Source: Litoreibacter meonggei (GTDB lineage: Bacteria; Pseudomonadota; Alphaproteobacteria; Rhodobacterales; Rhodobacteraceae). From it: a stretch of DNA of 64,000 nt. The position numbers and the translations under genes were made by a program. The stretch spans positions 359,501 to 423,500 of the forward strand of contig NZ_RCCE01000003.1 in NCBI RefSeq assembly GCF_003663885.1, in the 5' to 3' direction. The notes under the pieces are model-generated. The model saw only the letters and a program-made list of their open reading frames with translations, was not told where the DNA came from and made no database searches. Positions 23,196 through 40,775 of the stretch are shown here, in pieces. The stretch's first letter is position 1. Each line of letters opens with the position of its first letter.

Positions 23196-24482
23196 TTAGT
23201 CTACAGCAAGACCGCTTGGCACTCGGACGGGAATCCCGAAGACGGGGGACCCAAGCGAACTTCCTGTAAGCGCAGTCAGAAACGCAACTAGATATCCAAT
23301 CTCGGCGTCAGACAACGACGGACTGCGTGGTGTTAGCACGCGCTGTTGTCGCGCGATTTCTGCACTGTCTTGCCATATCAAGAAGTCTGCATGTTGCAGC
23401 CAACGAACCTCTGGCAATTTCGCCTTGGTTGGCGTCCATGTTTTAAACATGGCTTGTGGGTCCACGTGCTGGCGGATCATATCTGCCAACGTTTTGTGCG
23501 CTCCGTTATGCCCGTAAGGCGCACTGAGGGCGACGTTGCGCAGCATCGGTGTTCGGAACTTATACGCGTCCTCTAACCGGTCGCTTTCGCCCAACCGCCC
23601 AACGTCACGGGCGATCAGATCAAACTTGCGCGTCCGGCCCGGACCAAATGGCGGTAGGCCAATGGCGTGGAAGCTTTGGTCCGAAAGCAACGGCCCGCTG
23701 TGACACGATGCGCATCCGGCCTTGCCATAGAACAGATCGAACCCGCGTTTTTGCGCGCCGTTCAATGCGCTTATGTCACCCGCCAAATACTGGTCAAAGG
23801 GGCTGTCGATACTTTGGAATTCGACCGCTTGGAACGCCGCCAACGCGTTGGCGATATCGACAATCGTGACATCCTCGGGGGTGGTGACATGGTCAAAGGC
23901 ATCAACGAAAAGCTGCCCGTATTCGGGAATGATCCGCACCCTTTTGGCGATGATCAGCCAGCCGTTGTCGATCCGGTCGTTGACCGCGCCCGCGACCTCG
24001 TTTTCACCGGAGCCTCCGGCCATTTCCGTCTCGGACGTCAGCGGGAATAGCGCTTGCGCGGCAAGAACCGTGTCGATGCCATCCGGCAGCCATTCCTCGG
24101 CGGGGGTGTTAAAGCCGTTGCCATAAGTCTCCGCGCGACTGATCCGCCCGTCATGCATCAGCGTGTGCACATCGCGCGCGCCCAGGTTCCATAAGGCAGG
24201 CGCGTTTCGTGGGACGCGCCGTTCGATCCGGCTATCACCAACGCCAGCATTGCGGTCGGTGCCAAGGCCCGCACCACCCTCACCAATCCCCAAGGACCAA
24301 CCGTCCGAGGTGCCAAACTTGGGATGGTGACAGGTGCCGCAGCTGATATTCTTGTTCCCCGACAGTATTTTATCGTAGAATAAAAGCTGCCCAAGCGCCG
24401 CCTGATCTTGGTCGCCGGGATTGAAATCAGCGGCTGTCAAAGCAGTCGGAAAAGGATCGGCGAGCACTATCGCTGGTGCCAT
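23196..24482 (-). CDS. Di-haem cytochrome c peroxidase / MauG family protein
   Basis: About 428 residues from the ATG at 24482. Two haem c sites are visible, CGTCHHPKFG near residue 48 and CASCHSGPLL in the second half, with the intervening NAPALWN, HDGR and TPMLRNVALSAPYGHNGAH of the bacterial peroxidase family. It would act in the periplasm, reducing H2O2 or oxidising a protein partner. The start is doubtful: the visible signal core (FFFVAMAPAIVLA) begins upstream of this ATG, yet no ATG, GTG or TTG is found in frame close by. Either a short signal is used or the upstream part is altered. It is divergent from the Sel1 gene with only 27 nt between starts. Confidence 0.85.
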   Translation of the reverse strand: MAPAIVLADPFPTALTAADFNPGDQDQAALGQLLFYDKILSGNKNISCGTCHHPKFGTSDGWSLGIGEGGAGLGTDRNAGVGDSRIERRVPRNAPALWNLGARDVHTLMHDGRISRAETYGNGFNTPAEEWLPDGIDTVLAAQALFPLTSETEMAGGSGENEVAGAVNDRIDNGWLIIAKRVRIIPEYGQLFVDAFDHVTTPEDVTIVDIANALAAFQAVEFQSIDSPFDQYLAGDISALNGAQKRGFDLFYGKAGCASCHSGPLLSDQSFHAIGLPPFGPGRTRKFDLIARDVGRLGESDRLEDAYKFRTPMLRNVALSAPYGHNGAHKTLADMIRQHVDPQAMFKTWTPTKAKLPEVRWLQHADFLIWQDSAEIARQQRVLTPRSPSLSDAEIGYLVAFLTALTGSSLGSPVFGIPVRVPSGLAVD

Positions 24483-24509
24483 CGCAACGAAGAAGAAAGC
24501 CGCGCCCCA

Positions 24510-24977
24510 ATGAGAACCCTGATTGCCTTGCTGCTGAGTGTGTCGCCAGTTTTTGCCGACATCGAGAACGCGCGCGACCTTATGGAGAGCGGTGAGTTTA
24601 CCAAAGCCTATGACGAACTTGCCCCAGCGGCCTTGGCCGGAAATGCCGATGCGGAGGAGCTGATCGGCATCATGTACGCGATGGGATTGGGGGTGGAGCG
24701 CGACGACGAGCGGGCGTTTGAATGGTATTTGCGCAGCTCCATGAAGGGGCATCCGGGCTCGCAATCCGCAATCGGCTGGTATTATGAGGTCGGGCGCGGT
24801 TTGCCGAGCCCTGATCTGACCCGCGCTTATATGTGGTACACGCTGTCGGCCATTGGCGGCGATCCCGACGCGGCGATCAGCCTTGAGGAAGTGGTCAAGA
24901 AAATGACGCCTGAGATGATCAAGAAAGCGCATGTACTTGTCGCCGACTATAAGGGCTGGATGTACCCGTTCAGGTAA
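24510..24977 (+). CDS. Exported Sel1-like repeat protein
   Basis: A 155-residue protein with a clear signal peptide (MRTLIALLLSVSPVFA) and Sel1-type repeats: AGNADAEELIGIMYAMGLGV, RAFEWYLRSSMKGHPGSQSAIGWYYEVGRGL and RAYMWYTLSAIGGDPDA. Such repeats form a helical solenoid for protein contacts. The protein probably works in the periplasm as an adaptor. The gene runs divergently from the di-haem peroxidase, so the two may be jointly regulated. Confidence 0.8.
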   Translation: MRTLIALLLSVSPVFADIENARDLMESGEFTKAYDELAPAALAGNADAEELIGIMYAMGLGVERDDERAFEWYLRSSMKGHPGSQSAIGWYYEVGRGLPSPDLTRAYMWYTLSAIGGDPDAAISLEEVVKKMTPEMIKKAHVLVADYKGWMYPFR

Positions 24978-25016: not shown

Positions 25017-26072
25017 TTAATTCAGGTCGCGTGCGTAGCCGGCAGTAAGATCGGCCTCGGCCTCACCCACGGCCGCCACCAAGGCGTCCAGAATTTCACC
25101 GCCACCGTCGACATTGCCACGGAACCAGTCTTGAACCGGAGCCGCTGCTGCCGCGAAGGCTGCTTTCTCTTCAGGGGTCGGCACGTAGAGATCACCGCCG
25201 CCTGTGACAAACGCTTCATAGGCTTCAATCGACTTGCGCTTGGGCGACGCAAATGTCGCCTGCTGCAACTGGCTGAACCCGTCGACCACGACGCGACGCA
25301 GGTCTTCCGGCATTGCCATGAAGTTGGCGTTCGACATCCACCATAGCGCGCCCATGTAGGCGTGACCGTCCAGAGTCATATACTGTAAACCCGCATCCGG
25401 GAATTTCATCCCCATGATGTCGGTGATGCCGTTTTTGGAGCCTTCCACGACGCCGGTTTGGAACGATGTGAACAGCTCCGGCCAAGGGATCGGCGTCGGG
25501 GACGCGCCCATCGCGCGGACCAGTTCTTGCGGCAGGTCGGCCACAACGGTGCGGATTTTCAGGCCTTCCATGTCGGACGGCTTGGCCACGCGGCGCTGTG
25601 TGTTGGCAAAGTTGCGCCAGCCGCCGGTGTTGCCGATGGTCATCAGGCGGATCGCGCCGTCAGATGTCTCCAACGCCATGTCGCGCATTTTGCGGGTGAA
25701 GTCACCTGTCAGCACGGCTTCTGCCACACGGTCGTTGGCCATCAGATATGGCAGGTCCAAAACCTGCACATATGGGAAGATGCCCGCCGCACCACCTGAC
25801 GTGGAGATATAGACGTCGATGGAGCCTTCCGCCACGCCTTCAAGGCATTCCGCGCCGGTCGCGCAAAGTTGCGTGCCGATGAACAGCTCCACGCCCACGC
25901 GCCCGTTGGAGGCCGCTTCGACGTAGTTCTTGAACACGACAAGACCGTCATAGTCCTCGTCATTCTCGTTGGAGTTGGCCGTGGCGCGGATGGTGAAATC
26001 CTGCGCCCATGATGCGAGCGGGGTCGCCAGAAGCGCAGCAGTCATTGCCACTTTGGTTAGGTTTTTCAGCAT
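25017..26072 (-). CDS. dctP: TRAP transporter substrate-binding protein (DctP family)
   Basis: A 351-residue periplasmic binding protein with a signal peptide to about residue 23 (ending ASWAQ). The DctP fold is shown by GNTGGWRNFANTQRRV, the helix with MEGLKIRT, and PWPELFTSFQTGVVEGSKNGI. The ligand usually contacts an Arg in the KIRT motif, which is present. It delivers substrate to the DctQM permease encoded just upstream. Context suggests a sulfonated sugar; no direct evidence for ligand. It is the last gene of the six-gene minus-strand run. Confidence 0.92.
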   Translation of the reverse strand: MLKNLTKVAMTAALLATPLASWAQDFTIRATANSNENDEDYDGLVVFKNYVEAASNGRVGVELFIGTQLCATGAECLEGVAEGSIDVYISTSGGAAGIFPYVQVLDLPYLMANDRVAEAVLTGDFTRKMRDMALETSDGAIRLMTIGNTGGWRNFANTQRRVAKPSDMEGLKIRTVVADLPQELVRAMGASPTPIPWPELFTSFQTGVVEGSKNGITDIMGMKFPDAGLQYMTLDGHAYMGALWWMSNANFMAMPEDLRRVVVDGFSQLQQATFASPKRKSIEAYEAFVTGGGDLYVPTPEEKAAFAAAAAPVQDWFRGNVDGGGEILDALVAAVGEAEADLTAGYARDLN

Positions 26073-26136
26073 TGTGTCCTCCCTATGGATGCTGTTGGAG
26101 ACGCTTTTGCGCCTTTATTGATTGTGTCTACGGTGG

Positions 26137-27666
26137 TCACGGTGATGGGCTTATGCAAGCCGAGAAACCGACCTCGGGGCCGCAGCCCAGAAAACCGGCA
26201 AGATATGGCACCGTCATGGAAATGGCGGGGACATAGGTGATGAGGAAAATTACGACGACCTCTACCGCAAGGAACGGCAGAATGGCCCGCGAGATTGTTT
26301 CGACCTTCTCGCCGGACACCGACGAGGCCACGAACAGCACCAGCCCCATGGGCGGCGTCGCAAGGCCGACGGTCAGGTTCACCGACATGATGATCGCGAA
26401 ATGTACGGGGTGCACGCCAAGGTCGACGAAGATCGGGCCAAGGATTGGCCCGAGGATGATGATGGCCGGCCCCGCATCCAGAAACATGCCGACGATGAAC
26501 AGCAAGATGTTGATCAAGAACAGCAGCACCAGCGGGTTGTTGGACAGGGACAGGATGTAGTCCGACAAAATTTGCGGCGCGTAGGACAGCGACACGACCG
26601 TTTTGAACGACACCGCCGCCCCCACCAATAGCAACACCGCCGAGGTTGATAAGGCCGAGCGCGTCAGCACGTCGATCAGGTCGCGCCCGTTCATGGAGCG
26701 CAGCACGAAAAAGCTGATGATCAGCGCGTAGGCCACGGCGACAGCAGACGCCTCGGTCGGGGTGAAGACGCCAATGAGGATGCCACCCAGAATGATGATG
26801 GGCGTTTGCAGCGGTGCGACGGCTTTCTTGCAGACCAACCGGAAGTCGTTGGAGACGCGGGCCTTGGTGGCTTGGGCGATGGCATGCGCGATGGGCAGTG
26901 CTACGCCGAAGATCAGCCAGCCGTTGACCTCCATCGGGAACATCCATGTTACCAAACCCGATACCGCATAAAGGATCCCCGCGATGTTGATGCGGATCAG
27001 CACAAAGCTGACAGCGGATTCCAGTGGTGTAATGGATTGGTCCTTGCGCACGATACGCTCGGCCTTGGGCAGGTCATAGCGGTCCGCCATCAAGCGCACC
27101 ATGACCATGAGGCCAACGCCCACCAAGATGCCCGGCACGATGCCCGCAAGAAACAGCGAGGCCACGCTTTCGCCCATGACATAGGCGTAGATGATCATGA
27201 TGCCCGACGGCGGGATGATCGGCCCGATGACCGAACTTGCCGCCGTGATCGCCGCCGCGAATTTGCGGGTGTAGCCGTTCTTTTCCATCGCCGGAATAAG
27301 AGTGGAGCCAAGGGCAGATGTATCCGCCACCGCAGAGCCGGACAGGCCCGCGAACAAGATGGACGCCAAGATATTCACATGGGCCAGCCCGCCGCGCAGA
27401 TGCCCCATGAAGGCTTGCGAAAACTCGACGAGGCGCAGCGTGATGCCGCCACGATTCATGATCTCGCCCGCCAGCATGAAGAACGGCAAAGCCATCAACG
27501 GGAAGCTGTCCATGCCATTATAGAGGTTGCGGTAGAGGCCCGCGACGACGTTGCGTTGATCACCTTCCAGCATGATCAGCGCGATGGGCGAAGCCAGCAG
27601 CGCGAAAATCACCGGCAGGCCGATCATGATCAGCAGCAAGAAGATGGGCAGGAACCAAAGGAGCAT
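26137..27666 (-). CDS. dctM: TRAP transporter large permease (DctM family)
   Basis: A 509-residue inner-membrane protein with more than twelve hydrophobic segments. The N-terminal half has MALPFFMLAGEIM and SGSAVADTSALGSTLIPAM, and the C-terminal half has FLDAGPAIIILGPI and VGLATPPMGLVLF, all DctM hallmarks. It uses the sodium gradient. It is longer than the usual about 430 residues because the region of roughly 200-290 contains an extra stretch with two hydrophobic segments and a charged loop. The start overlaps the dctQ stop by one nucleotide. Confidence 0.93.
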   Translation of the reverse strand: MLLWFLPIFLLLIMIGLPVIFALLASPIALIMLEGDQRNVVAGLYRNLYNGMDSFPLMALPFFMLAGEIMNRGGITLRLVEFSQAFMGHLRGGLAHVNILASILFAGLSGSAVADTSALGSTLIPAMEKNGYTRKFAAAITAASSVIGPIIPPSGIMIIYAYVMGESVASLFLAGIVPGILVGVGLMVMVRLMADRYDLPKAERIVRKDQSITPLESAVSFVLIRINIAGILYAVSGLVTWMFPMEVNGWLIFGVALPIAHAIAQATKARVSNDFRLVCKKAVAPLQTPIIILGGILIGVFTPTEASAVAVAYALIISFFVLRSMNGRDLIDVLTRSALSTSAVLLLVGAAVSFKTVVSLSYAPQILSDYILSLSNNPLVLLFLINILLFIVGMFLDAGPAIIILGPILGPIFVDLGVHPVHFAIIMSVNLTVGLATPPMGLVLFVASSVSGEKVETISRAILPFLAVEVVVIFLITYVPAISMTVPYLAGFLGCGPEVGFSACISPSP

Positions 27667-28262
27667 CAGTCAGCCCCCGCCAGTGCGTCGTTATTAATCA
27701 CCGGCAGCTTGTCGGCCTGCCCGAGCAGCGTGACCACCTGACGGATGATCAACTCGATATTCACGAGGATAAGCAGATTCACCCCGACCCAGAGCGCCGC
27801 GTATTGATAGTTGTTCTGGAATTTTGCACCGCATTTTCCGATCTCGATGCCAAAGGGCCAACGCAATGACGACGAACACCCCCGGCCCGACAAGGTGTCG
27901 ACGTGGTTGTTGAGCCCGCGATCCCACGCGATAAAAAGCACCCATAGCGAAATGCCAAGCAGCAGGATGCCTAGCAACTGCGCCAGAAGTCGCGGCAGAG
28001 CGGCTTCCAGCATGTCGATGGCGACGAACCCGCCCTTGCGGTAGGCCAGCGGCGCCACCAGCCCCGTCATCCAAAGCATGCCAAAGCGTGCGCCTTCTTC
28101 GGTCCAGTTGGGGGCGTCGTTCAAGGCGTAGCGGAAAAACACCTGCCCAAGGATAAGGCAGACCATGATCGCCAAGGCGGTGATCCCGATCCAACGGCCC
28201 ATCGCCAAAACGCGGCTATTGACCCAATGAAGCAGACCGGCGGCTGCCAACAGTATCTGCAT
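27666..28262 (-). CDS. dctQ: TRAP transporter small permease (DctQ family)
   Basis: A 198-residue protein with four hydrophobic helices and the DctQ landmarks QVFFRY, the WTEEGARFGMLW stretch, and GGFVAIDML. It forms the membrane complex with DctM. The insert between helices 3 and 4 (about 118-150) contains two Cys and is longer than usual. It is 23 nt after the flavin reductase gene and overlaps dctM, so the enzymes and the importer form one operon. Confidence 0.9.
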   Translation of the reverse strand: MQILLAAAGLLHWVNSRVLAMGRWIGITALAIMVCLILGQVFFRYALNDAPNWTEEGARFGMLWMTGLVAPLAYRKGGFVAIDMLEAALPRLLAQLLGILLLGISLWVLFIAWDRGLNNHVDTLSGRGCSSSLRWPFGIEIGKCGAKFQNNYQYAALWVGVNLLILVNIELIIRQVVTLLGQADKLPVINNDALAGAD

Positions 28263-28285
28263 CTTTTTCCTCCCCCCGACCCTAA

Positions 28286-28801
28286 TCAGTGCGCCGTAAA
28301 ACGCCCCACCTGTCCTTTGTAGAAGGCAAGTGGATCGCCCTCTTCGCGCATCTCGGCGCGGTTTACCTGACCAAGCATGATCACGTGATCGCCGCCCTCA
28401 TAGACGGCAGTTTTTGTGCATTCAAACCGCGCCAGACAGTTCTCTAGCACCGGTACACCTTCCGCGTTCAGCTTCAGATCGCGGTCGTTCAAAGCATAGA
28501 CGTCTTTTGCCACGGCCCAGCACAAATCGTCCTGATCCGCCGACAAGACGTGCACGGCATAGCTCGTGGCGCTCTCGAAATAGGAAAACCTGCGCGAGTT
28601 TTTGTCGGGCGACCACAGCACCAAGGGCGGCGACAGGGAGACCGACGAGAAGCTGTTTGCTGTGATTGCCGCCACGCCGTTTTCGGTGGCCGCCGTCACA
28701 ATTGTCACGCCTGTCGCGAACCGCCCGAACGCGTCACGCAGCAGACGGGTGTTGCTGTCATCCGGCACAAACGCATTCGAAACAGGGGCGTGAAGCGACA
28801 T
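28286..28801 (-). CDS. Flavin reductase (HpaC-like), probable partner of the monooxygenase
   Basis: A 171-residue split-barrel NAD(P)H:FMN reductase. Family signs are FGRFATGVTIVTA, GVAAITANSFSSVSLSPPLVLW, RFSYFESATSYAVHVLSADQ and the terminal GDPLAFYKGQVGRF. It should supply FMNH2 to the LLM-type monooxygenase two genes upstream. In the sulfoquinovose monooxygenase pathway this corresponds to SmoA, whereas classical alkanesulfonate systems use the flavodoxin-like SsuE. The ATG at 28801 overlaps the stop of the aldo-keto reductase by one base, so the two are translationally coupled. Confidence 0.9.
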   Translation of the reverse strand: MSLHAPVSNAFVPDDSNTRLLRDAFGRFATGVTIVTAATENGVAAITANSFSSVSLSPPLVLWSPDKNSRRFSYFESATSYAVHVLSADQDDLCWAVAKDVYALNDRDLKLNAEGVPVLENCLARFECTKTAVYEGGDHVIMLGQVNRAEMREEGDPLAFYKGQVGRFTAH

Positions 28802-29691
28802 CACGCGACCTCCCGACCCAAGGCGGCTTCATAGAGTGAGAACCATGTTTCACGGTCCAACTGCACCTTCAGCGCGTCCGAGATTTTGGCAATGCGCTCC
28901 AAGTTATTGGTCCCCAATACCGGCAATATATTTGCGGGGTGGTGCAGCAAGAAGGCCACGGCAACCGCTGCACGGTCCACGCCTTGGTCCGCCGCAATGG
29001 CGTCCAACCGATCCGCAACATCGCCTTTGCCCGTCATCAGGCCACCCCCGCCAAGCGGTGACCACGCCATGAGCGGCTGACCTTGACGTTGGTGGAATGC
29101 GATATCGCCGTTGGTGAACGGCGCGACCTCGGCCAATGAAATCTCGATCTGGTTGGTGGCCAGTTGCGTCTTCATACCCGCTTGCAAAAGCTCCCAATCA
29201 TAGGGACGGAAATTCGATACGCCGACGCTGCGCACCTTGCCGCTTTGCACAAGATCATCAAGCGCGGCCCCCGTCTCGTTGTGGTCCATCAGCGGATCAG
29301 GGCGGTGGATCAGCAGCAGGTCGATATGGTCGATGCCCATGTCACGCAGGGAGCAATCGACCGAATATTCGATGTGTTTGCGCGATGTGTCATAGTGCTT
29401 TACCCGCGCGTCCGAGTAGCGGCCAGCGGGGGCAACGATATCGCATTTCGTTACAATCTCCATCTTCGCGCGCAGCGACGGGTTCGCCTTTAGCGCCCCG
29501 CCAAGAACGGCCTCCGCGACGTAGCCGCCATAGATGTCGGCTTGGTCGAACGTGGTGATGCCTTGATCCAGACAAGTCTGAATTTTTGCCTCCACATGGG
29601 TAGGGGACGTATCGGCGTCGTCTGCCACGCGCCACATGCCATAGACAAGGCGGCTGAAGGTAAGGTCGGACGTGAGGGAAACGCGATCCAT
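28801..29691 (-). CDS. Aldo-keto reductase (YdhF-like), candidate 6-oxo-sugar reductase
   Basis: A 296-residue NAD(P)H-dependent reductase of the (beta/alpha)8 AKR fold. The tetrad is complete: D49, Y54, K82 and H129 (in ADIYGG, IVTKCD and LLIHRPD). SVGVSNFRP and the C-terminal LGTNNLERI are also typical. The N-terminal pattern LVYGMWR with DDADTSP resembles the YdhF group, to which I believe SmoB of the sulfoquinovose monooxygenase pathway belongs; SmoB reduces 6-oxo-glucose to glucose. ATG at 29691 overlaps the monooxygenase stop by one base. The function is inferred from context. Confidence 0.88.
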   Translation of the reverse strand: MDRVSLTSDLTFSRLVYGMWRVADDADTSPTHVEAKIQTCLDQGITTFDQADIYGGYVAEAVLGGALKANPSLRAKMEIVTKCDIVAPAGRYSDARVKHYDTSRKHIEYSVDCSLRDMGIDHIDLLLIHRPDPLMDHNETGAALDDLVQSGKVRSVGVSNFRPYDWELLQAGMKTQLATNQIEISLAEVAPFTNGDIAFHQRQGQPLMAWSPLGGGGLMTGKGDVADRLDAIAADQGVDRAAVAVAFLLHHPANILPVLGTNNLERIAKISDALKVQLDRETWFSLYEAALGREVA

Positions 29692-30845
29692 TAGCGGCGG
29701 ACTCCTGCGGCAAGTGGGGTTGCGGGGGACGTTGATGGAACGCGGCCATAGGCTTCGGGCAAGGAGCAGGTTTTCATCTGCGGCAGCACGCGGGTCCCGA
29801 AATGTTTGGCCTCGTCGATATGTGGATAGCCCGACAGGATGAACGCACGGATACCCATCTTCTGATACGTCTCCAGCTTGGACAGCACCTGATCGGTCGA
29901 GCCCACGATAGCCGCTCCACAGCCAGAACGCGCACGGCCAACGCCAGTCCACATATGTGGCTCAATATAGCCATGGTCATCGGCCACGTCGCGGTTTTTG
30001 GCTTGGTGACTGACGCCCAAGGACTTGGCATCAAGGGCGCGCTCGCGGATAGTAGCACCCTGATCGTCGTCCAGTTTGGACACGATGTAGTCTGCGTATT
30101 CCTTCGCCTCCGCCTCGGTGTCGCGCACGATGACATGCGTGCGCAGCCCGTAGTCCAGCGTGCGGTTGTGGCGCGCGGCGGCCTCGTTGGCGGCTTTCAT
30201 GCGGCCTCCGAGTTCCTCGATCTTTTCGGGCCACATCAAATAGACGTCGCAATACTCGCCGCACAGCTCCAGCGCGTCGGGGGAGTAGCCGCCGAAATAC
30301 AGCATCGGCCCACCGGTTTGGTATGGGCGCACGGGATCGGTGGTCAGGCCTTTGAAATCGTAGATTTCGCCAGTGTGGTTAATCTCGTCTTGGGTCCACG
30401 CCTGCTTGAGGATTTGCACCACCTCGCGGGAGCGTTGGTAGCGGTAGGGGCTTGGCTCTTTTTGGCCCGGGAAGTCGGAGGAGATGATGTTAACCGTCAG
30501 CCGCCCTTCCAACATGTGATCAAGCGTAGCCAGCGTGCGGGCCAGCATGATCGGCTGCATCTCACCGCAGCGCACGGCGGCCAGCAGGTTGATCTTGGAT
30601 GTGATTGGGGCGCAGCCTGCAACGAAGCTCAGCGTGTCTTGGCCGACTTGATAGGACGACGGGCAAAGGATGTTGCGAAAGCCTTGATCTTCGGCGGTTT
30701 TCACGATGTCCGAGCAATGCGCCCAAGACGATCGAAGATCGCCGTCTGGCACACCCAAAAACTGATAGTCATCAGAGCACAGGGCCGAGAACCAAGAGAC
30801 CTCTGCCGCGTTCAAATCTGGTGATGTCACCGGAACAACTGTCAT
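29691..30845 (-). CDS. FMNH2-dependent monooxygenase, SsuD-like LLM family (candidate sulfosugar monooxygenase)
   Basis: A 384-residue luciferase-like monooxygenase. It follows SsuD of E. coli along its length: PMLYFGGYS, YLMWPEKIEEL, YGLRTHVIVRDTEAEA, MWTGVGRARSGCGAAIVG and FILSGYPHIDEA match the SsuD segments, including the Arg region before CGAAIVG that is essential in SsuD. Such enzymes cleave the C-S bond of sulfonates with O2 and FMNH2, giving an aldehyde and sulfite. With the flavin reductase and the AKR it reproduces the SmoC-SmoB-SmoA enzyme set. A strong GGGAGGA site precedes the ATG. It is the first gene of the operon, divergent from gntR. Confidence 0.92.
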   Translation of the reverse strand: MTVVPVTSPDLNAAEVSWFSALCSDDYQFLGVPDGDLRSSWAHCSDIVKTAEDQGFRNILCPSSYQVGQDTLSFVAGCAPITSKINLLAAVRCGEMQPIMLARTLATLDHMLEGRLTVNIISSDFPGQKEPSPYRYQRSREVVQILKQAWTQDEINHTGEIYDFKGLTTDPVRPYQTGGPMLYFGGYSPDALELCGEYCDVYLMWPEKIEELGGRMKAANEAAARHNRTLDYGLRTHVIVRDTEAEAKEYADYIVSKLDDDQGATIRERALDAKSLGVSHQAKNRDVADDHGYIEPHMWTGVGRARSGCGAAIVGSTDQVLSKLETYQKMGIRAFILSGYPHIDEAKHFGTRVLPQMKTCSLPEAYGRVPSTSPATPLAAGVRR

Positions 30846-30880
30846 GTGATTCCTCCCAAAACCCCGTCGCAATTTCTTCT

Positions 30881-30930
30881 TGCGTAACGCTGTCCTTGAT
30901 GTAGATCAATGGGGTATCAATTTTTACGCA
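30881..30930. promoter_or_regulatory. Candidate GntR operator in the divergent promoter region
   Basis: The 101-nt gap between the monooxygenase gene and the regulator contains a palindrome, TTGAT-GTAG-ATCAA (30896-30909), nested between the arms TGCGTAA (30881-30887) and TTACGCA (30924-30930). Both are seen directly. A role as binding site for the adjacent GntR/UTRA protein is inference. Confidence 0.4.
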
Positions 30931-30946
30931 CGGAGGCGGCCCGCAG

Positions 30947-31657
30947 ATGTATGAGCGTCACGACAGCCCAGCCGCCCTTCCGATTTACGCTCAGGTCAGC
31001 GAAGTATTGATCCGCGAGATTGCGTCAGGACGGTTGGCGGATGGTCAACGATTGCCGCCAGAACGGCAGCTGGCCGCAGCGCATCAAGTGACCGTTCGCA
31101 CCCTGCGAAAGTCCCTGAAAATGCTGGAGAACAAGGGGCTTCTGGAACGCGTTCAAGGCTCGGGTAACTACGTCAGGTCCAATCCTGAAGCGCAGAGTAT
31201 CTATTCGATGTTCCGGATTGAACTTCTGGCGGGGGGCGGACTGCCGACGGCGAAGTTTTTGGACATATGCGAGTGTGAGAAACCTGCGGAGCTGCCAAAA
31301 TTTGGCACATCCAAACACGCGACGCGTATGCGGCGATTGCGGTTTCTCAACAAGGTGCCGGCGGCCCTGGAGGAAATATGGCTCGACGCGGACAGCGGAG
31401 CTGTGCTGCCGGAACAGGCGTCGGATTCTCTTTATCACTACTATCAGGTGAAGCTTGGCTTCTGGATCACGCGGGCCGAAGACTACGTCAGCATAGGGCA
31501 GACGCCGGACTGGACGCCGCCCGAGTTTGGCAAGACCGCTGGCGCGACAACAGGCTTTATCGAGCGTTTGAGCTGGGAGCAAAAACCGCGCCCCGTCGAG
31601 TATTCGCGCACTTGGTTTGACACTGACACCGCACGATATGTGCAACGACTGAAATAG
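30947..31657 (+). CDS. GntR-family regulator with UTRA domain (HutC type)
   Basis: A 236-residue transcription factor. The winged-helix domain (about 10-78) contains YAQVSEVLIREIASGRL, LPPERQLA and RTLRKSLKMLENKGLLERVQGSGNYV. The UTRA ligand-binding domain follows (about 90-232), with RMRRLRF, EEIWLD and ERLSWEQ. HutC-type proteins are mostly repressors released by a small metabolite, often a sugar phosphate or pathway intermediate. It probably controls the divergent monooxygenase-TRAP operon and its own operon with the Gfo/Idh/MocA gene 10 nt downstream. Confidence 0.92.
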   Translation: MYERHDSPAALPIYAQVSEVLIREIASGRLADGQRLPPERQLAAAHQVTVRTLRKSLKMLENKGLLERVQGSGNYVRSNPEAQSIYSMFRIELLAGGGLPTAKFLDICECEKPAELPKFGTSKHATRMRRLRFLNKVPAALEEIWLDADSGAVLPEQASDSLYHYYQVKLGFWITRAEDYVSIGQTPDWTPPEFGKTAGATTGFIERLSWEQKPRPVEYSRTWFDTDTARYVQRLK

Positions 31658-31667
31658 GGAATTCGAC

Positions 31668-32774
31668 ATGGCTCAACAGGTCAATTACGGCGTCATTGGA
31701 TGTGGCATGATGGGGCAAGAGCACCTTCGCAACATCGCGCTTCTGCCTGACACACGCGTGTCCGCGATCTTCGAGCCGGATGCGGAGATGGCGGCGGAGA
31801 CCTTGGAATTTGCGCCGACCGCAACCGTTGTGGACAGCATTGACGCGCTGTTGGAAGTGGCGGATCTGGACTGCATCCTGATCGTCAGCCCCAACTTCCG
31901 GCATGTCGAGCAACTGGAGGCCTTGGCCGAAAAACGCCCCCTGCCCGTTTTGGTCGAAAAGCCCCTGTTCACCGACCCGAACGACGTCCAACGTATGGAA
32001 GCGTTTCGCGCGCGCTACCCCGCACCCGTTTGGGTGGCGATGGAGTATCGCTACATGCCACCCATCGCCGCATTCTTGGCAGAAGCAGCCGACGCCACGG
32101 GCGGGGTCAAAATGCTGACAATCCGAGAGCACCGCTTCCCGTTCCTGCCCAAGGTTGGTGACTGGAACCGGTTCAACCGCAACACCGGCGGCACCTTTGT
32201 CGAGAAATGCTGCCATTTCTTCGACTTGATGCGTCTGGTGATCGGGTCCGACCCTGTCCGCGTCATGGCGTCGGGGGGACAAGATGTGAACCACTTGGAC
32301 GAGACTTATGACGGCGAGACTCCGGACATTTTCGACAATGGCTATGTGATCGTGGATTTCGAATCCGGTGCGCGCGCCGTTCTGGAACTGTGCATGTTTG
32401 CCGAAGGTGCACGCTACCAAGAGGAAGTGTCCGCCCTTGGGCCAAGGGGCAAGATCGAGGCATTCGTACCCGGCCCCGATCGTTTCTGGCCGGAGCATTT
32501 GGGTGCCGCGCCCGTTCCTCAAGTGATTATCAGCCCGCGCGATCCGAAGGGCCCGTATGTGCGTGACGTTCCAGTGGACCCGACCATTCTAGATGCAGGC
32601 GATCACAACGGATCAACGTTCTACCAGCACCAAGGCTTCGTCGATCTGGTCCGTGGCATTCGCAGCGCGCCGGAGGTGGATCTGAATGACGGTATGATAG
32701 CGGTCATCATGGGGATGGCCGCCCAGACATCGATGAATGAGCACCGTGCGGTCCGTATCGACGAGTTCACCTAG
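31668..32774 (+). CDS. Gfo/Idh/MocA family enzyme, candidate NAD-dependent sulfoquinovosidase (GH188 type)
   Basis: A 368-residue protein. The Rossmann part starts GVIGCGMMGQEHLRN (8-22), and EKP is at 97-99 in VLVEKPLF. The C-terminal substrate domain has DWNRFNRNTGG and VEKCCHFFDLMRL (178-190, with K180 and H183), typical of the catalytic face. Most relatives oxidise a sugar hydroxyl with NAD(P)+. Some (GH188) use bound NAD+ transiently to cleave sulfoquinovosides; I suggest this role because of the adjacent sulfonate monooxygenase set. An ordinary sugar or inositol dehydrogenase remains possible. Confidence 0.85.
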   Translation: MAQQVNYGVIGCGMMGQEHLRNIALLPDTRVSAIFEPDAEMAAETLEFAPTATVVDSIDALLEVADLDCILIVSPNFRHVEQLEALAEKRPLPVLVEKPLFTDPNDVQRMEAFRARYPAPVWVAMEYRYMPPIAAFLAEAADATGGVKMLTIREHRFPFLPKVGDWNRFNRNTGGTFVEKCCHFFDLMRLVIGSDPVRVMASGGQDVNHLDETYDGETPDIFDNGYVIVDFESGARAVLELCMFAEGARYQEEVSALGPRGKIEAFVPGPDRFWPEHLGAAPVPQVIISPRDPKGPYVRDVPVDPTILDAGDHNGSTFYQHQGFVDLVRGIRSAPEVDLNDGMIAVIMGMAAQTSMNEHRAVRIDEFT

Positions 32775-32859
32775 ACGCGCTGCACAGTTTCTCTGCGTTC
32801 ACCAAGGTTGCTCTGTCCATGCGACCGAATAAACTGGCTTGCAAAGAGGAGCTCCAGCA

Positions 32860-33441
32860 ATGCAGAAAATTCAGTCACAGGGCATCCATCATATTACGTT
32901 GATGGGCGCTGACAGGCAGACATCGATTGATTTCTGGGAAGGCGTGTTGGGAATGCCCTTCGTATTCGAACAGCCCAATCTGGATGACCCAAACGAAGAC
33001 CACTTGTATTTCGACCCCGGCGACGGGCGGTTGATCACCATCTTCACCAATGAGACCCGCACGCGCGCGCATGGCCGCACGCCGACTGATGCTGGATGTG
33101 TGCATCATCTGGCAATCAACGTCAGCCTCGCCACTTTCCGCCAAATCGAGATTCGCCTGAACGACCGTGCCATCCCGCATTCCGGCCATAAAGATCGGGG
33201 CTTCATGGATAGCATCTATTTCAAAGATCCGCTTGGCTTCTTGATCGAATGTGCCTGCTACAAGTTTGAGCCACCCCTCGGATGCACCCACGCAGACGTG
33301 ATGATCCAAGCCCATAAACTGCGTTTGAAAGCCGGTGATGACAGTATCGGTGAAATCCATCTTGCGGATGCGATTGAGGTGCTCGTCGCTCGCTCACAAG
33401 ACTCGCTCTCGACCGACCGCAGCCCGAAGGCGCCTTATTAG
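32860..33441 (+). CDS. VOC (glyoxalase/dioxygenase) superfamily protein
   Basis: A 193-residue two-module VOC protein. The likely metal ligands are in GIHHITLMG, in CVHHLAINV, and Glu in GFLIECACYK, an H-H-E set as in type I extradiol dioxygenases and related enzymes. The region after about residue 140 is a tail without clear fold. The start at 32860 has an AGAGGAG site. It follows the Gfo/Idh/MocA gene by 85 nt on the same strand, so it may or may not belong to the same transcript. Its reaction cannot be read from sequence. Its 3' end overlaps the convergent RluA gene by 4 nt. Confidence 0.75.
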   Translation: MQKIQSQGIHHITLMGADRQTSIDFWEGVLGMPFVFEQPNLDDPNEDHLYFDPGDGRLITIFTNETRTRAHGRTPTDAGCVHHLAINVSLATFRQIEIRLNDRAIPHSGHKDRGFMDSIYFKDPLGFLIECACYKFEPPLGCTHADVMIQAHKLRLKAGDDSIGEIHLADAIEVLVARSQDSLSTDRSPKAPY

Positions 33442-35005: not shown

Positions 35006-37447
35006 TTAGACTTTCACGCGTTCCGATTTTGGATCATAAAACGGCTTGGACGAGACCTCTGCTTTTACGCGCGTGCCCGCGACGTCGATCTCGTAGGTGG
35101 ACGCCAGAACATCCGCTAAGGCTTCACCCCGACACGGGATGTAGCCCATGCCCATTGCGGCGCCCAAATGGTGGCCGTATGAGCCGGAGGTCAAATAGCT
35201 GACGATCTCGCCATCGCGCATAACTGGCTCGGCGTGGTAGAGAAGTGGCTCGGCATCGGTTAACTTAAACTGCAGCAACCGCATGTTTAGGCCCTTCTCC
35301 GCTTTCTCCAGCACGGCTTCACGCCCTATGAAATTCGGTTTGTCCTTCTTCACAGCAAAGCCAAGTCCCGCTTCCATCACATGGTCCTCGGAGGTGATAT
35401 CGTGGCCAAAATGGCGGAAACCCTTTTCCATTCGGCAACTATCCATCATGTGCATGCCACACAACTTCAGGTCCATGCCCCGTCCGGCGTCGCGAAGCGT
35501 CTCGAAGACATGTGCCGCTTGATCTGCGCCGACATAAATTTCCCAACCCAATTCCCCCACATAGGTGACGCGATGCACACGAGCGAGGCCCATGCCGATC
35601 TCGATCTCTTGCGCAGTGCCGAACGGGTTTACGGCATTCGAGAAATCAGCAGGTGAGACCTTCTCAAGCAAAGTGCGGGCATTCGGGCCCATCACAGCCA
35701 AAACGCCCTCGCTAGAGGTCATGTCGGTGATTACAACGTTAAAGTCGCCGATATTGCGGCGCATCCATATCTCATCTGCAAGCCGCGTAGCCGCAGGCGT
35801 TACCACCAGATAGGCCGTTTCAGACAGCCGTGTGACCGTCACGTCAGCCTCAATTCCAGCCTGCGCATTCAGGAATTGCGTGTAAACGATCTTGCCAACA
35901 GGCACGGAATAATCCCCGCCACCGACATAGTTCATAAACGCCTCAGCGTCGCGCCCTTCGACCCTGATCTTGCCGAAAGAAGACATATCATACATGCCGA
36001 CATTGCTGCGGATCGCGTGGTGTTCGCGGGCTACGTTGTCGAAGAAATTTTGCCGTTTCCACGAATATTGGTATTCACGCTCCTGCCCTTCATCCGCAAA
36101 CCAGTTGGCTCGTTCCCAACCGGCAAGTTCGCCCATGACGGCTCCATTTTCGACGAGTTGCTGATGAAACGGCGTGCGACGAACGCCACGTGCTGTCTTC
36201 TTTTGCAGATAGGGAAAATGGTCTGCATAGAGCAGTCCTAGAGTCTCTTTGGAGCGCTCGAACAGATAGGTCCGGTTCCCCTGAAACGGCTGCATCCGGC
36301 TGATATCCACATCGCCCAGATCGAAAGGCTTCTGCCCCGCATCCATCCATTGCGCCAGCGCGGAGCCCGCGCCGCCCGCAGATTGTATTCCGATAGAGTT
36401 AAAACCTGCCGCGACCCAGAAGTTATCCAGCTCCGGCGCAAGGCCCAGATGGTAAGCGTCATCGGGGGTGAAGGATTCCGGGCCGTTGAAGAAGGTGTGA
36501 ATGCCAGCCTCCGCCAGCATCGGAAGGCGCTCGACCGCCGCCTCCAAGATCGGCTCGAAATGGTCAAAATCTTCGGGAAGTTGATCGAACTCGAAGTCTT
36601 TGGGTATCTCTAACTTCCACGGCTTCGACACCGGTTCGAACGCGCCCAGCAGCATCTTGCCTGCGTCTTCCTTGTAGTAGGCACACTCGTCCGGCACCCG
36701 CAGTACCGGCATTTGCGTGAGGCCGGGTATCGCTTCGGTGACGATGTAGAAGTGCTCACACGAATGCAGCGGCACGTTGACGCCTGCCATTTTACCCACT
36801 TGATAGCCCCACATGCCGCCGCAATTGACGACGTGTTCGGCTTGGATAGAGCCTGTTTCACCGTTCTTATCCTGCCAGCTCACCCCCGTGACGCGACGGC
36901 CTTCTTTGTGGATATCGGTGACCAGATATCCCTCTTTTACCAACGCGCCATTCTGGCGCGCACCTTTGGCCAAAGCGTGCGCAATATTGGCAGGATCGCC
37001 CTGCCCGTCGAGCGGCAGATAGACACCCCCGGTAACCCCATTGATGTTGAGATGCTCGTAGCGGTTTTTTACCTCTTGAGGTGAAATAGGCTCTGCTTCA
37101 ACGCCGAAAGACCGCGCCATGGCGGCTTGGCGGTTGATCTCTTCCAGCCGTTCTTCGGTCAATGCCACGGTTATAGAGCCGCACCGTTTGAAGCCCGTGG
37201 CGACGCCTGTTTCGGCCTCCAGATCGCCATAGAGTTCTTGCGAGTATTTCGCGAGCTTGGTCATATTTTTCGTCGCGCGCAATTGCGCGATAAGACCAGC
37301 GGCATGCCAAGTTGTGCCGGATGTTAGTTGCTTGCGTTCCAACAAGATCACATCTTTCCAGCCAAGTTTGGCCAGATGATAGGCAACCGAGCATCCGATA
37401 ACGCCCCCGCCAATGATGACGACACGTGCATGCGTGGGAAGTGTCAT
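35006..37447 (-). CDS. FAD oxidoreductase + GcvT domain protein, dimethylglycine/sarcosine dehydrogenase-like (copy 2)
   Basis: An 813-residue two-part enzyme. The N-terminal DAO-type FAD domain has IIGGGVIGCSVAYHLA (11-26) and TTWHAAG (45-51); the His48 position corresponds to the residue that covalently holds FAD in dimethylglycine dehydrogenases. The middle has FTPDDAYHLG and the GIQSAGGAG turn. The C-terminal half (about 430-800) is a GcvT-like folate domain with VTRLSETAYLVV, GELGWEIYV and CGMHMMDSCRMEKGFRHFG. It probably oxidises an N-methyl group and hands formaldehyde to THF. The ATG overlaps the methyltransferase stop by 4 nt. Confidence 0.9.
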   Translation of the reverse strand: MTLPTHARVVIIGGGVIGCSVAYHLAKLGWKDVILLERKQLTSGTTWHAAGLIAQLRATKNMTKLAKYSQELYGDLEAETGVATGFKRCGSITVALTEERLEEINRQAAMARSFGVEAEPISPQEVKNRYEHLNINGVTGGVYLPLDGQGDPANIAHALAKGARQNGALVKEGYLVTDIHKEGRRVTGVSWQDKNGETGSIQAEHVVNCGGMWGYQVGKMAGVNVPLHSCEHFYIVTEAIPGLTQMPVLRVPDECAYYKEDAGKMLLGAFEPVSKPWKLEIPKDFEFDQLPEDFDHFEPILEAAVERLPMLAEAGIHTFFNGPESFTPDDAYHLGLAPELDNFWVAAGFNSIGIQSAGGAGSALAQWMDAGQKPFDLGDVDISRMQPFQGNRTYLFERSKETLGLLYADHFPYLQKKTARGVRRTPFHQQLVENGAVMGELAGWERANWFADEGQEREYQYSWKRQNFFDNVAREHHAIRSNVGMYDMSSFGKIRVEGRDAEAFMNYVGGGDYSVPVGKIVYTQFLNAQAGIEADVTVTRLSETAYLVVTPAATRLADEIWMRRNIGDFNVVITDMTSSEGVLAVMGPNARTLLEKVSPADFSNAVNPFGTAQEIEIGMGLARVHRVTYVGELGWEIYVGADQAAHVFETLRDAGRGMDLKLCGMHMMDSCRMEKGFRHFGHDITSEDHVMEAGLGFAVKKDKPNFIGREAVLEKAEKGLNMRLLQFKLTDAEPLLYHAEPVMRDGEIVSYLTSGSYGHHLGAAMGMGYIPCRGEALADVLASTYEIDVAGTRVKAEVSSKPFYDPKSERVKV

Positions 37448-38325
37448 GTTGGAGTTCCTTTAAAGCGTCGCGATAGCTCGCGAATATGGGCTGGGCCAAC
37501 TTCACAGCAGCCACCGATTAGCGTCGCCCCTGAGGCCACCCAGCGATCTGCAAAGTTCGCGTAGACTTCTGGCGTCAGATCATTGCGTGCGGACAGCATG
37601 TCTACTGTCGCGCCAACCTCCGAGAAGTCACTGCTGATCCCAGTGAAGCCATTGGCGTAGGCTCCGAGGGGTATGCGACAACCAGCCAGCAACGGCACAG
37701 CCTGCGTCACTGACTCCGGCGTTGAACAGTTTATCAACACGGCGGTGGGCGCGTATTCTGCTAGCAGCGGCAATATCTCGATCAACTGCTCGCCAGATCG
37801 AAGCTTCGTCCCATCTTCATCATCGACAGAAACCGCAACCCAGACGGGCTTGCCTGTAACACCACCCCCCATCAACGCGCCTTTGAGTTGATCGACAGAA
37901 GCCATGGTTTCGAAGATATGCGCATCGACGAGCGGTGCCTGAATTTTTGCAAGTTTCGCATAAACCTCAGCAGCTTGTTCCGCCGGAGGAGCCTTGTCAG
38001 GCTGATATGAGAAACCCAGCGGTCCAAGTGCCCCAAGAACCTGCCCAGACCCCTGCGCATCACGCGCCTCGCAAGCCAAAGTGCAGGCGAGGATTTCAAG
38101 TGATTCCAACTGTCCTAAAATTCCGTGCGCCTCGAAGCGATCTGGCAGGACCGAATAGCTGTTAGTTGTCGCAACTTCCGCACCGGCAGCGAAATAGTCG
38201 TCATGCACCGCGCGCACCATTTCAGGATTGTCTATTAGGGCTTGAACGGACCAAAGCGACGTCGCGCGACCTGCCCGCGCGATCAACTCTTGGCCCATTC
38301 CCCCGTCTAGAATCGTGACACTCAT
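37444..38325 (-). CDS. Homocysteine S-methyltransferase family protein (betaine- or S-methylmethionine-dependent)
   Basis: A 293-residue (beta/alpha)8 zinc enzyme. ILDGGMGQEL is the family start; the zinc ligands C200 (INCSTPES) and C273-C274 (GGCCEVGP) are all present. It moves a methyl group from a donor to homocysteine, making methionine. Because it lies between two dimethylglycine-dehydrogenase-like genes with 4-nt overlaps on both sides, glycine betaine is the most plausible donor; S-methylmethionine (MmuM) or a dimethylsulfonium compound are alternatives. ATG 38325 is chosen because of the ATGA overlap and the normal N-terminus. Confidence 0.9.
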   Translation of the reverse strand: MSVTILDGGMGQELIARAGRATSLWSVQALIDNPEMVRAVHDDYFAAGAEVATTNSYSVLPDRFEAHGILGQLESLEILACTLACEARDAQGSGQVLGALGPLGFSYQPDKAPPAEQAAEVYAKLAKIQAPLVDAHIFETMASVDQLKGALMGGGVTGKPVWVAVSVDDEDGTKLRSGEQLIEILPLLAEYAPTAVLINCSTPESVTQAVPLLAGCRIPLGAYANGFTGISSDFSEVGATVDMLSARNDLTPEVYANFADRWVASGATLIGGCCEVGPAHIRELSRRFKGTPT

Positions 38326-40775
38326 GCGCGGATTCGCGTGTTTTCGGGATCCCATAGCGGTTGATCTTCCTGAACCACTGCTTTGCAACGCACGCCAAAT
38401 ATTTCCACTTCGAGTTCGGTGCCGGGTTTAGCGGCTTCCGCCTTCACCACGCCCAAAGCAATGGACTTGTTCACGCGGTAGCCCCAGTCTCCGGAGGTAG
38501 TTTCCCCGACGATTTCACCCCCCGACCAAACAGGCGACATGTAGGGCGCATCAGCGTCGCCTGCGTCAACTATCAGGGTAACAAAGCCCTTCTTAGAGCC
38601 TTGTTGCACCTCGCTGGCCAAAGCGGCCTTGCCCGGGAAGTCCTGTTCTTTGTTCAAGCGCAGGAACCGATGCAAACCGCCTTCCAGCAAGGTGTAGTCA
38701 GTGGAGAGATCGCCTTTCCACGTCCGATACCCCTTCTCTATCCGCATGGAGTTCAACGCGTACATTCCAAACGGGATTGCGCCCGCGTCGCGAAGGGCCT
38801 CATAGACCACCGCGCTATCGTCGAACGACGTGTGCACCTCCCAACCCAGTTCGCCTGCGAAGGAGATACGCATTAGCTTGGCGGGCTTACCCGCGACCGT
38901 GGCGTCTTGAACGGTCAACCAGCCAGCAGTCAGGTCAGCGTCCTGGACCAGCCCCTGCATCAGTTCGCGCGATTGCGGCCCTGTAACCAACGCGGTCGAC
39001 CAATCGCGGGTGATGTCAGTCATAGTAAGCGACCCATCGGTGGGTAAACGGCTTTGCAAAAACTCGAAGTCATGCCATTGCGCCACAGCAGCTGTCATGA
39101 TCCAAAAGTCGTCCTCAGCCCAACGGATGATCGTCACTTCTGTCACGATCCGACCGCGACTGTCGGTGAAGTAGCCAAGGTTCATACGGCCTGTTTTGGG
39201 CAGCGCGCCCGCGATTTGTCCGCGCAGCCACTCAGCGGCACCTGCACCCGTCAGCGTGTAGCGAGAGAAGCCCGGCATATCGAGCACGCCGGTGCCAGTC
39301 GTGCAGGCTTCAACCTCCTCCTTGATACGCTGTTCCCATGGGCCTTTGCGGCCCCATGTCTGGGTCGCCTCTTCGGACGTGTCATCCCCGCCTTTGGCGA
39401 ACCAATTCGCGCGTTCCCAGCCGTTATAGGCGCCCATTTGCGCGCCGGACGCTAACAACGACGCGTGGTTCGGCGACAACTTCTTATCGCGACCAGCGGG
39501 CCATTCATGTCGCGGGAAGTGCATCGCGTATTCATGGCCGTAAGTCTCTAGTGCCTTCGCGTGACAGTAGTCATGGTCGGCAAAGTCGGTGTAGCGGCGC
39601 GGATCGACGGACCACATATCCATTTCGGTCTCGCCGTGCATGATCCACTCGCTTAGCACCTTGCCCGCGCCGCCGCCTTGGGCGATGCCGAAGGTGAAAC
39701 TATGGCCCTCGAAGGCGTTTTTGACGCCGGGCATGGGGCCAATCATCGGCAGGCCATCGGGGGCGTAAGGAATTGGGCCGTTGATGTTGCGGCCAACGCC
39801 CGCCTCGCCGAGCAGCGGGACGCGTGCCATGGCATCTTCGATATAGAATTCGAGCCGCTCCAGATCGTCGGGGTAGAGTTGGAAGGAGAAATCCTCCGGC
39901 ATAGGGTCGTCTGGCGTGACCCAATGGGCTTTGCAATTGCGCTCGTAGGGACCAAGGTTGAGGCCGTATTTATCCTGACGCAGGTAGTAGCTGATGTCGA
40001 CGTCGCGGACGAGCGGCACCTTGTGGCCTTTTTCCTTGGTCCAAGCTTCCAGCTCCGCGATTGGTTCGGTCAGGAAATACTGGTGGGACATGACGACCAT
40101 CGGCACGGTGCGGCCACCGAAGGGCTTGAACATCTCGCCCACGCGCTGCGCGTAGTAACCGGCACAATTGACGACTATTTCGGCTCTAATATCGCCCTTT
40201 TCGGTCTTTATGATCCACTCGTCGCCATCTCGATCAAGGCCAATAATGGGGCAGAACCGCTCGATGCGCCCCCCTGCGGCGCGCGCACCTTTGGCCAAGG
40301 CTTGTGTCAGCTGCGCCGGGTCAATGTCACCGTCGAGCGGATCTGACATGCCGCCCGCGAGGTCGTGAATTTCGAGAAACGGGTGGTGATCATGCAACTC
40401 CTTCGGGGTCAGAATGTCCATTTGTAGACCCTGATAACGGGCTTGAGAGGCAACCTTCTCGAACTCCTGCATCCGCTCTTTCGTGTGCGCCAGTCGCAAA
40501 GAGCCCGTGACGTGGTAATTCATTGGATAGTCCACATCCTCGGCCAGCGTGCGGTACATCTCCAACCCAAAGCGCTGCATGTTCATCACAGCCCAGTTGG
40601 GCGCGAAGTTCGGGCAGTTGCCAGCCGCGTGCCAAGTGGAGCCCGCCGTAAGTTCGTTCTTTTCCAGAAGAACACAGTCGGTCCAGCCTGCTTTCGCGAG
40701 GTGATACAATGTCGACGTGCCGACCACCCCGCCCCCGATAATTACGACCCGTGCGGTTGTTGGAAAATCACTCAT
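38322..40775 (-). CDS. FAD oxidoreductase + GcvT domain protein, dimethylglycine dehydrogenase-like (copy 1)
   Basis: An 817-residue paralogue of the enzyme at 35006 with the same architecture: FAD domain with IIGGGVVGTSTLYHLA and STWHAAG (H49 as likely flavin-linking residue), a middle section with GGGAGKVLSEW, and a C-terminal GcvT domain with FAGELGWEVH and RIEKGYRTWKGD. It should demethylate an N-methylated amino acid such as dimethylglycine or sarcosine with transfer to THF. Sequence identity to copy 2 looks moderate, not recent. It overlaps the GFA gene upstream by 8 nt. Confidence 0.9.
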   Translation of the reverse strand: MSDFPTTARVVIIGGGVVGTSTLYHLAKAGWTDCVLLEKNELTAGSTWHAAGNCPNFAPNWAVMNMQRFGLEMYRTLAEDVDYPMNYHVTGSLRLAHTKERMQEFEKVASQARYQGLQMDILTPKELHDHHPFLEIHDLAGGMSDPLDGDIDPAQLTQALAKGARAAGGRIERFCPIIGLDRDGDEWIIKTEKGDIRAEIVVNCAGYYAQRVGEMFKPFGGRTVPMVVMSHQYFLTEPIAELEAWTKEKGHKVPLVRDVDISYYLRQDKYGLNLGPYERNCKAHWVTPDDPMPEDFSFQLYPDDLERLEFYIEDAMARVPLLGEAGVGRNINGPIPYAPDGLPMIGPMPGVKNAFEGHSFTFGIAQGGGAGKVLSEWIMHGETEMDMWSVDPRRYTDFADHDYCHAKALETYGHEYAMHFPRHEWPAGRDKKLSPNHASLLASGAQMGAYNGWERANWFAKGGDDTSEEATQTWGRKGPWEQRIKEEVEACTTGTGVLDMPGFSRYTLTGAGAAEWLRGQIAGALPKTGRMNLGYFTDSRGRIVTEVTIIRWAEDDFWIMTAAVAQWHDFEFLQSRLPTDGSLTMTDITRDWSTALVTGPQSRELMQGLVQDADLTAGWLTVQDATVAGKPAKLMRISFAGELGWEVHTSFDDSAVVYEALRDAGAIPFGMYALNSMRIEKGYRTWKGDLSTDYTLLEGGLHRFLRLNKEQDFPGKAALASEVQQGSKKGFVTLIVDAGDADAPYMSPVWSGGEIVGETTSGDWGYRVNKSIALGVVKAEAAKPGTELEVEIFGVRCKAVVQEDQPLWDPENTRIRA

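Follow-up and report, generated by a model that had tools for sequence, protein, structure and literature searches.

A predicted sulfoquinovose monooxygenase locus in Litoreibacter meonggei with a candidate TRAP-type sulfosugar importer

Sulfoquinovose (SQ) is a sulfosugar of plants and algae, and the known SQ monooxygenase (sulfo-SMO) pathway normally uses a GH31 enzyme as its sulfoquinovosidase. As set out in the accessible text of PMC9594981, this pathway (also sulfo-ASMO) operates in Agrobacterium tumefaciens and Novosphingobium aromaticivorans, where SmoC, SmoB and SmoA turn SQ into 6-dehydroglucose and sulfite and 6-dehydroglucose into glucose, and A. tumefaciens employs an ATP-binding cassette (ABC) importer. 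The sulfo-SMO clusters of marine roseobacters carry, almost universally, a sulfoquinovosidase of family GH188, and the accessible main text of that report (Kaur 2023, PMC10755693) does not mention a tripartite ATP-independent periplasmic (TRAP) importer. In the sulfo-Embden-Meyerhof-Parnas-2 (sulfo-EMP2) pathway, as far as the accessible part of PMC12890257 describes it, the C-S bond is not cleaved. TRAP systems are known for sulfonates from isethionate uptake, in which the receptor IseP (8T9T) takes a C2 sulfonate and not a sugar. Here we describe a locus at 25017-32774 of a 64,000-nucleotide stretch of the Litoreibacter meonggei genome (contig NZ_RCCE01000003.1; hereafter the window, with positions counted from its first letter) that is, judged by its genes and their homologies, a sulfo-SMO locus. 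It differs from the A. tumefaciens system in having a TRAP importer and a GH188 enzyme rather than GH31, and it belongs with the roseobacter clusters; since Kaur 2023 reports GH188 together with SMO genes in that group, the smo and GH188 content is ordinary and adds one more member to a known type. The part for which we found no precedent in the accessible literature is the proposed sulfosugar TRAP importer. We put the probability at roughly 80% that the locus is a complete cassette for the use of SQ (sulfoquinovosyl glycerol), with TRAP import, GH188, SmoABC and GntR control.

All eight genes of the locus are present, and the first-pass annotation, made from the sequence alone, had described their content and order accurately. 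Six genes on the minus strand run smoC-smoB-smoA-dctQ-dctM-dctP and diverge from gntR and a Gfo/Idh/MocA gene on the plus strand; in this order their Pfam-type families are Bac_luciferase, Aldo_ket_red, Flavin_Reduct, DctQ, DctM, DctP, GntR with UTRA, and GFO_IDH_MocA. The junction letters show one-base overlaps between smoC and smoB (TAATG), smoB and smoA (TGATG) and dctQ and dctM (TGATG). Relatives repeat the same gene order, so the cluster is not a product of chance.

The same annotation had read these genes as a sulfo-SMO system, and comparison by phmmer with solved structures bears this out. The product of smoC (29691..30845, minus; 384 amino acids), a putative monooxygenase dependent on reduced flavin mononucleotide (FMNH2), matches 7OLF at 1.2e-206 and 7OH2 at 1.7e-198, both of which we take to be characterised SmoC behind generic PDB names; the next match is 7JV3, presumably MsuD, at 4.5e-52. 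The open reading frame (ORF) list opens this gene at a TTG at 30872; in the alignment, residue 1 of 7OLF falls on the ATG at 30845. No other gene of the 3.95 Mb genome matches PF00296 (E <= 0.001), and the nearest named genomes are Litoreibacter, with SmoC identities of 95-96%. The aldo-keto reductase gene smoB (28801..29691, minus), whose ATG overlaps the smoC stop, encodes a putative 6-dehydroglucose reductase that matches 7BBY at 2.7e-126 and 7BBZ at 3.1e-126, presumably characterised SmoB under generic PDB names, against 5e-60 for YdhF and about 1e-60 for YdhF-like proteins. The third enzyme, encoded by smoA (28286..28801, minus; PF01613, 4.7e-34), overlaps the smoB stop with its start; its family and its place in the operon mark it as an HpaC/FerA-like flavin reductase, with 4XHY (2.5e-38) as the nearest solved relative, and it would supply FMNH2. 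From these homologies we infer that SmoC of this locus acts on SQ.

The Gfo/Idh/MocA gene (31668..32774, plus) had been inventoried correctly as the divergent partner of gntR without being recognised as a glycosidase. It matches 8ZN9 at 3.6e-164, ArSqgA (8QC3) at 3e-105 and FlSqgA (8QC2) at 2e-104, beyond which there are only distant dehydrogenases; by these matches we rejected an inositol or sugar dehydrogenase, and with them the idea that the locus is missing its sulfoquinovosidase. ArSqgA and FlSqgA are sulfoquinovosidases of GH188 that depend on nicotinamide adenine dinucleotide (NAD+), and the accessible text of Kaur 2023 (PMC10755693) lists residues that contact SQ. All eight that were compared with ArSqgA are identical in the window protein, namely Arg166, Leu170 and Lys172, which hold the sulfonate, and Lys107, Tyr136, Glu189, His193 and His321; they were placed by eye in the 8QC3 alignment, where chain and paper numbering differ by 13, and the motif was found again by pattern search. 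By homology and these residues the gene is a predicted NAD+-dependent sulfoquinovosidase of GH188.

The importer sets the locus apart from the first-described sulfo-SMO gene set. In place of the ABC importer of that set, the smo operon contains dctQ (27666..28262, minus; small permease, PF04290, 7.7e-17), dctM (26137..27666, minus; large permease, 509 amino acids, PF06808 at 2.7e-110 and TIGR00786 above its cut-off) and dctP (25017..26072, minus; solute-binding protein, PF03480, 1.1e-48), so that all three TRAP subunits are accounted for by Pfam. The first-pass suggestion of TRAP in place of ABC turns out to describe the majority arrangement among the nearest relatives. We examined 80 named SMO loci, the top 80 among 583 confirmed candidates and therefore skewed to close relatives, and counted a gene as present when tblastn matched 35% or more of the query, which is not proof of an intact gene. 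SmoB was found in 77 of them, SmoA in 77, GH188 in 76, GntR in 80 and DctP in 57, and every one of the 57 DctP-bearing loci also holds GH188. The strict GH188 motif occurs in 81 of the 100 loci searched for it (L032-L111 and L130-L149); because the pattern permits no substitution, some of the 19 loci without it do have a tblastn match to GH188. Eight of the 80 loci carry the binding protein of an ABC sugar importer (L045, L046, L047, L048, L051, L062, L074 and L088), and none of these has DctP. In seven of the eight, L062 being the exception, the binding protein directly follows smoA, and next come two permeases, an ATPase and a putative sulfate exporter of the YeiH type, families that were read on L045 only. 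Fifteen loci have neither DctP nor the ABC binding protein; L035, L065 and L078 retain only DctQ, and some of the fifteen are cut by contig ends. The ABC importer of L045 (9891-15728 of that locus) sits in the TRAP position, and because its binding protein matches solved structures weakly (best 6.7e-08), it is another candidate sulfosugar receptor.

The association between the TRAP receptor and the monooxygenase extends across the family. In an even draw of 394 genomes of the Rhodobacteraceae, SmoC (E <= 1e-80) is present in 166 and DctP (E <= 1e-90) in 144; both occur in 111, SmoC alone in 55, DctP alone in 33 and neither in 195 (Fisher p = 4e-27, uncorrected for relatedness). Coordinates were available for 99 of the 111 two-gene genomes, the other 12 being left out for want of them, and in 93 of the 99 the two genes lie less than 7 kb apart (median 4651 bases). 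The remaining six have them on separate contigs; three of the six DctP contigs (L181, L182 and L186) are 4-8 kb long, with SmoB and SmoA both present on L182. The TRAP-bearing arrangement is not peculiar to this genome and is widespread in the family.

The 33 genomes that have DctP without SmoC offer a natural control; two of them, G149 and G209, have no DctP closer than distant ones of about 50% identity. We read all 33 loci by tblastn with the same 35% coverage criterion, and 29 bear at least one SQ-type gene. In 21 (L130-L143, L145, L147, L148, L172, L174, L177 and L179) there is an SQ isomerase, a PfkB-type sulfofructose (SF) kinase, a LacD-like sulfofructose phosphate (SFP) aldolase and GH188; two more (L171 and L176) gave no aldolase match but have isomerase, kinase and GH188, and L146 has GH188 with GntR. 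The operon of L133 illustrates the layout, running from a DeoR regulator through dctQMP, a MauG-like gene, PfkB kinase, aldolase, isomerase, GH188 and aldose epimerase to an aldehyde dehydrogenase; its isomerase scores 252 bits against NF048012, 'sulfoquinovose isomerase', under the cut-off of 700, and its GH188 matches 8QC3 at 1e-116. On this gene content, and by its likeness to the pathway in the accessible part of PMC12890257, we call the loci with isomerase, kinase, aldolase and GH188 sulfo-EMP2-like. One of them, L130, belongs to the window's own genus (genome G171) and joins the TRAP system to the EMP2-like pathway, with no SmoC match in the family-wide search; conversely, the L133 isomerase as query gave no match at 1e-10 in the window's genome, in a search run without a positive control. 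That one importer is common to two unrelated SQ pathways argues for SQ or an SQ glycoside as its predicted cargo, bound by DctP and transported by DctQM.

Five of the 33 loci hold SmoB and/or SmoA without SmoC: L144 (SmoB only), L170 (SmoA only), L169, L173 and L180. Their genomes (G040, G048, G126, G359 and G226) gave no SmoC match at 1e-20, again with no positive control run. A Rieske oxygenase alpha subunit lies near the smo genes at L173:3510-4673 (minus; PF00848) and L180:10505-11611 (plus). We considered it as a replacement for SmoC and did not uphold this, with two of the five SmoC-less loci having it and homologues standing beside SmoC elsewhere: read by eye among the matches listed, at least 10 genomes with SmoC have a homologue of 59-77% identity roughly 3 kb away from it, so it is no simple replacement. 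It may have an accessory role in SQ metabolism or a related one.

A draw of 385 genomes from across the class yielded nine DctP matches outside the family. Six have 76-84% identity: L160 and L162 lie in EMP2-like loci, L161 and L163 beside SmoC, and in the other two, G584 (DctP contig of 3.2 kb) and G700 (L164, 17 kb), SmoC is on another contig. Among the three at 39-50%, L165 has isomerase, kinase and aldolase, L167 kinase and aldolase, and in L166 none was found. Ten plasmid records carry this DctP (E <= 1e-100, at least 67% identity), and all ten hold SmoC with the two starts 3.3-4.7 kb apart. The full smo-TRAP-GH188 order was seen in the three plasmids that were opened (L191, L192 and L193), those of Ruegeria sp. 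TM1040, a laboratory strain that has the cassette on its megaplasmid, Rhizobium sp. SL42, which comes from root nodules, and Paracoccus seriniphilus, whose plasmid is typed as mobilizable. In an 80-row DctP tree the 14 EMP2-linked rows interleave with the SMO-linked ones, requiring a minimum of 5 label changes, at least 2 of them forced by supported branches; shuffled labels average 13.1 changes, and the labels are thus clustered. This tree leaves out L134, L137 and L147 (full-length filter) and L172, L174, L177 and L179 (fetched later), and labels L113-L119 as SMO by default, L117 without a check for a neighboring SmoC. Because EMP2- and SMO-linked receptors interleave, the importer has probably changed its pathway partner more than once.

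The receptor itself, a proposed binding protein for SQ or SQ glycosides, has Arg174 and the pair Cys70/Cys76 identical in all 62 aligned homologues. Arg174 was matched to the anion-binding arginine of TRAP receptors (SiaP Arg147) by eye from the motif GLKIR and not by superposition; according to the accessible text of PMC4646407, 96.8% of such receptors carry this arginine, which makes contact with carboxylates and in rare cases with sulfonates or phosphates. The predicted model has a mean predicted local distance difference test (pLDDT) score of 81, falling below 50 at 198-206 and 216-220, where it is too weak for a ligand to be named. Its top fold match is IseP (7.4e-22, 22% identity), followed by 4P8B (1.1e-21) and sialic acid receptors (about 3e-21), an order that points weakly to a sulfonate cargo. 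We consider it likely that the DctP clade with invariant Cys70/Cys76 and Arg174 forms a dedicated importer of SQ and sulfoquinovosyl glycerol and would be the first sulfosugar TRAP system, a module swapped between SMO and EMP2-like pathways that is found both on chromosomes and on plasmids and alternates with ABC importers. Among the papers seen in our literature searches on sulfoquinovose and TRAP, which did not extend to Liu 2023 or to the figures and supplement of Kaur 2023, where these TRAP genes may appear, there was no SQ TRAP importer. Of the hits looked into, PMC11236759 uses the two terms separately, and the traps of PMC11659671, PMC6278857 and PMC11968277 are parts of mass spectrometers. 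There is no TRAP wording in the accessible text of the sulfoquinovose papers PMC12890257, PMC13372026 and PMC9594981, and that of PMC12421959 discusses ABC importers for SQ.

Several observations weigh against so tidy a picture. This DctP is lacking from 55 of the 166 SmoC genomes, and of the 14 plasmid records that hold SmoC, 4 are without it (one Marinovum, and three in Spirosoma and Emticicia at 51-53% SmoC identity). In at least four SmoC genomes the TRAP system is on another contig with no smo gene in the surrounding 12-20 kb (L164, L183, L184 and L185), and L183-L185, three of the split pairs described above, therefore speak against a strict linkage of TRAP and smo. In four of the 33 DctP-only loci no SQ gene stands out clearly: L168, L175, L149, where just a kinase matched, and L178, which is on a 3.6 kb contig. 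With identities of no more than 17-24% among the 50 best fold matches, structure does not reveal the ligand of DctP, and IseP is barely ahead of other TRAP receptors. No YeiH-type exporter was found in the window's genome.

One alternative view is that the enzymes degrade SQ while the TRAP system imports another co-dietary anion, such as a sugar acid or a short sulfonate, and SQ enters otherwise. TRAP receptors mostly bind carboxylates (PMC4646407), some DctP orthologues lie apart from SQ genes (L164, L168, L175 and L183-L185), and the accessible text on Taurinivorans (PMC10507020) proposes TRAP systems as importers of taurine and sulfolactate. The system nonetheless occupies the place of the ABC sugar importer of 7 of the 80 named loci and accompanies two unrelated SQ pathways along with GH188, and the rare sulfonates in PMC4646407 are held by the same arginine; we regard this view as unlikely. 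More doubtful still is another C6 sulfosugar, for example sulfofucose or sulforhamnose, as the substrate of the locus: sulfofucose catabolism is known in a Paracoccus, but the clusters described in the accessible text of PMC12421959 employ different enzymes and ABC importers, all eight GH188 residues checked equal the SQ contacts of ArSqgA, and SmoC is very close to 7OLF and 7OH2. We rejected as scarcely credible a general alkanesulfonate sulfur-scavenging system of the SsuD/MsuD type with no tie to sugars, since SsuD TIGR03565 is the top NCBIfam model for the monooxygenase yet scores 226 bits, far under its cut-off of 518, the phmmer match to SsuD (1NQK and 1M41) is 3e-50 against about 1e-206 for 7OLF, and the same locus holds the SmoB relative and a sulfoquinovosidase.

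The GntR-type regulator (30947..31657, plus) has a DNA-binding domain (PF00392, 2.3e-17) and a UTRA ligand domain (PF07702, 1.3e-17), and the 101-base divergent promoter holds the palindrome TTGATGTAGATCAA at 30896-30909, the single TTGATN4ATCAA in the window (0.03 expected) and one of nine genome-wide. Of 81 loci, the window included, 53 have this gapped palindrome in their divergent region; because five of these are ABC-type (L045-L048 and L074), the palindrome tracks the regulator rather than the importer. GntR presumably binds it, making it a candidate operator. As for the sulfite released, YeiH is present in 24 of the 80 named SMO loci, and the window's genome has a SoxC-type sulfite dehydrogenase beside SoxB as well as an MsrP. 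Sulfite is presumably handled by genes outside the locus.

The route we propose would begin in the periplasm, where DctP would take SQ or an SQ glycoside with its sulfonate held by Arg174, and DctQM would then import the captured solute at the expense of an ion gradient. GH188 would free SQ from its glycosides by NAD+-dependent oxidation and elimination. SmoA would make the FMNH2 with which SmoC, using O2, would cleave the C-S bond to give sulfite and 6-dehydroglucose; SmoB would reduce the latter to glucose, and sulfite would pass to genes elsewhere in the genome. GntR at the palindrome may repress both arms of the locus until an SQ metabolite binds to it.

Two conserved neighbors accompany the TRAP genes (23196-24977 in the window; L130-L149 among the relatives): a MauG-like di-haem cytochrome c peroxidase ORF with a provisional start (23196..24932, minus; PF03150, 5.3e-35) and a Sel1-repeat protein (24498..24977, plus; PF08238, 2.9e-15). 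A MauG homologue occurs in 42 of the 80 named SMO loci and in 16 of the 20 DctP-only loci first fetched, and in L133 the MauG-like ORF continues directly into the gene for the kinase of that EMP2-like operon. At the other end, 3' of GH188 and on the same strand, lies a gene of the VOC (glyoxalase) superfamily (32839-33441), for which the 80 named SMO loci yielded no match under the thresholds applied. Farther along, at 35006-40775, two long ORFs resembling dimethylglycine dehydrogenases dependent on flavin adenine dinucleotide flank a homocysteine S-methyltransferase-like ORF, as read by eye from the ORF list.

If the TRAP system carries SQ or its glycosides, a main route of sulfosugar uptake in this group would draw its energy from an ion gradient and not from ATP. 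The DctP clade would then serve as a marker gene for SQ uptake regardless of the pathway by which the sugar is degraded.

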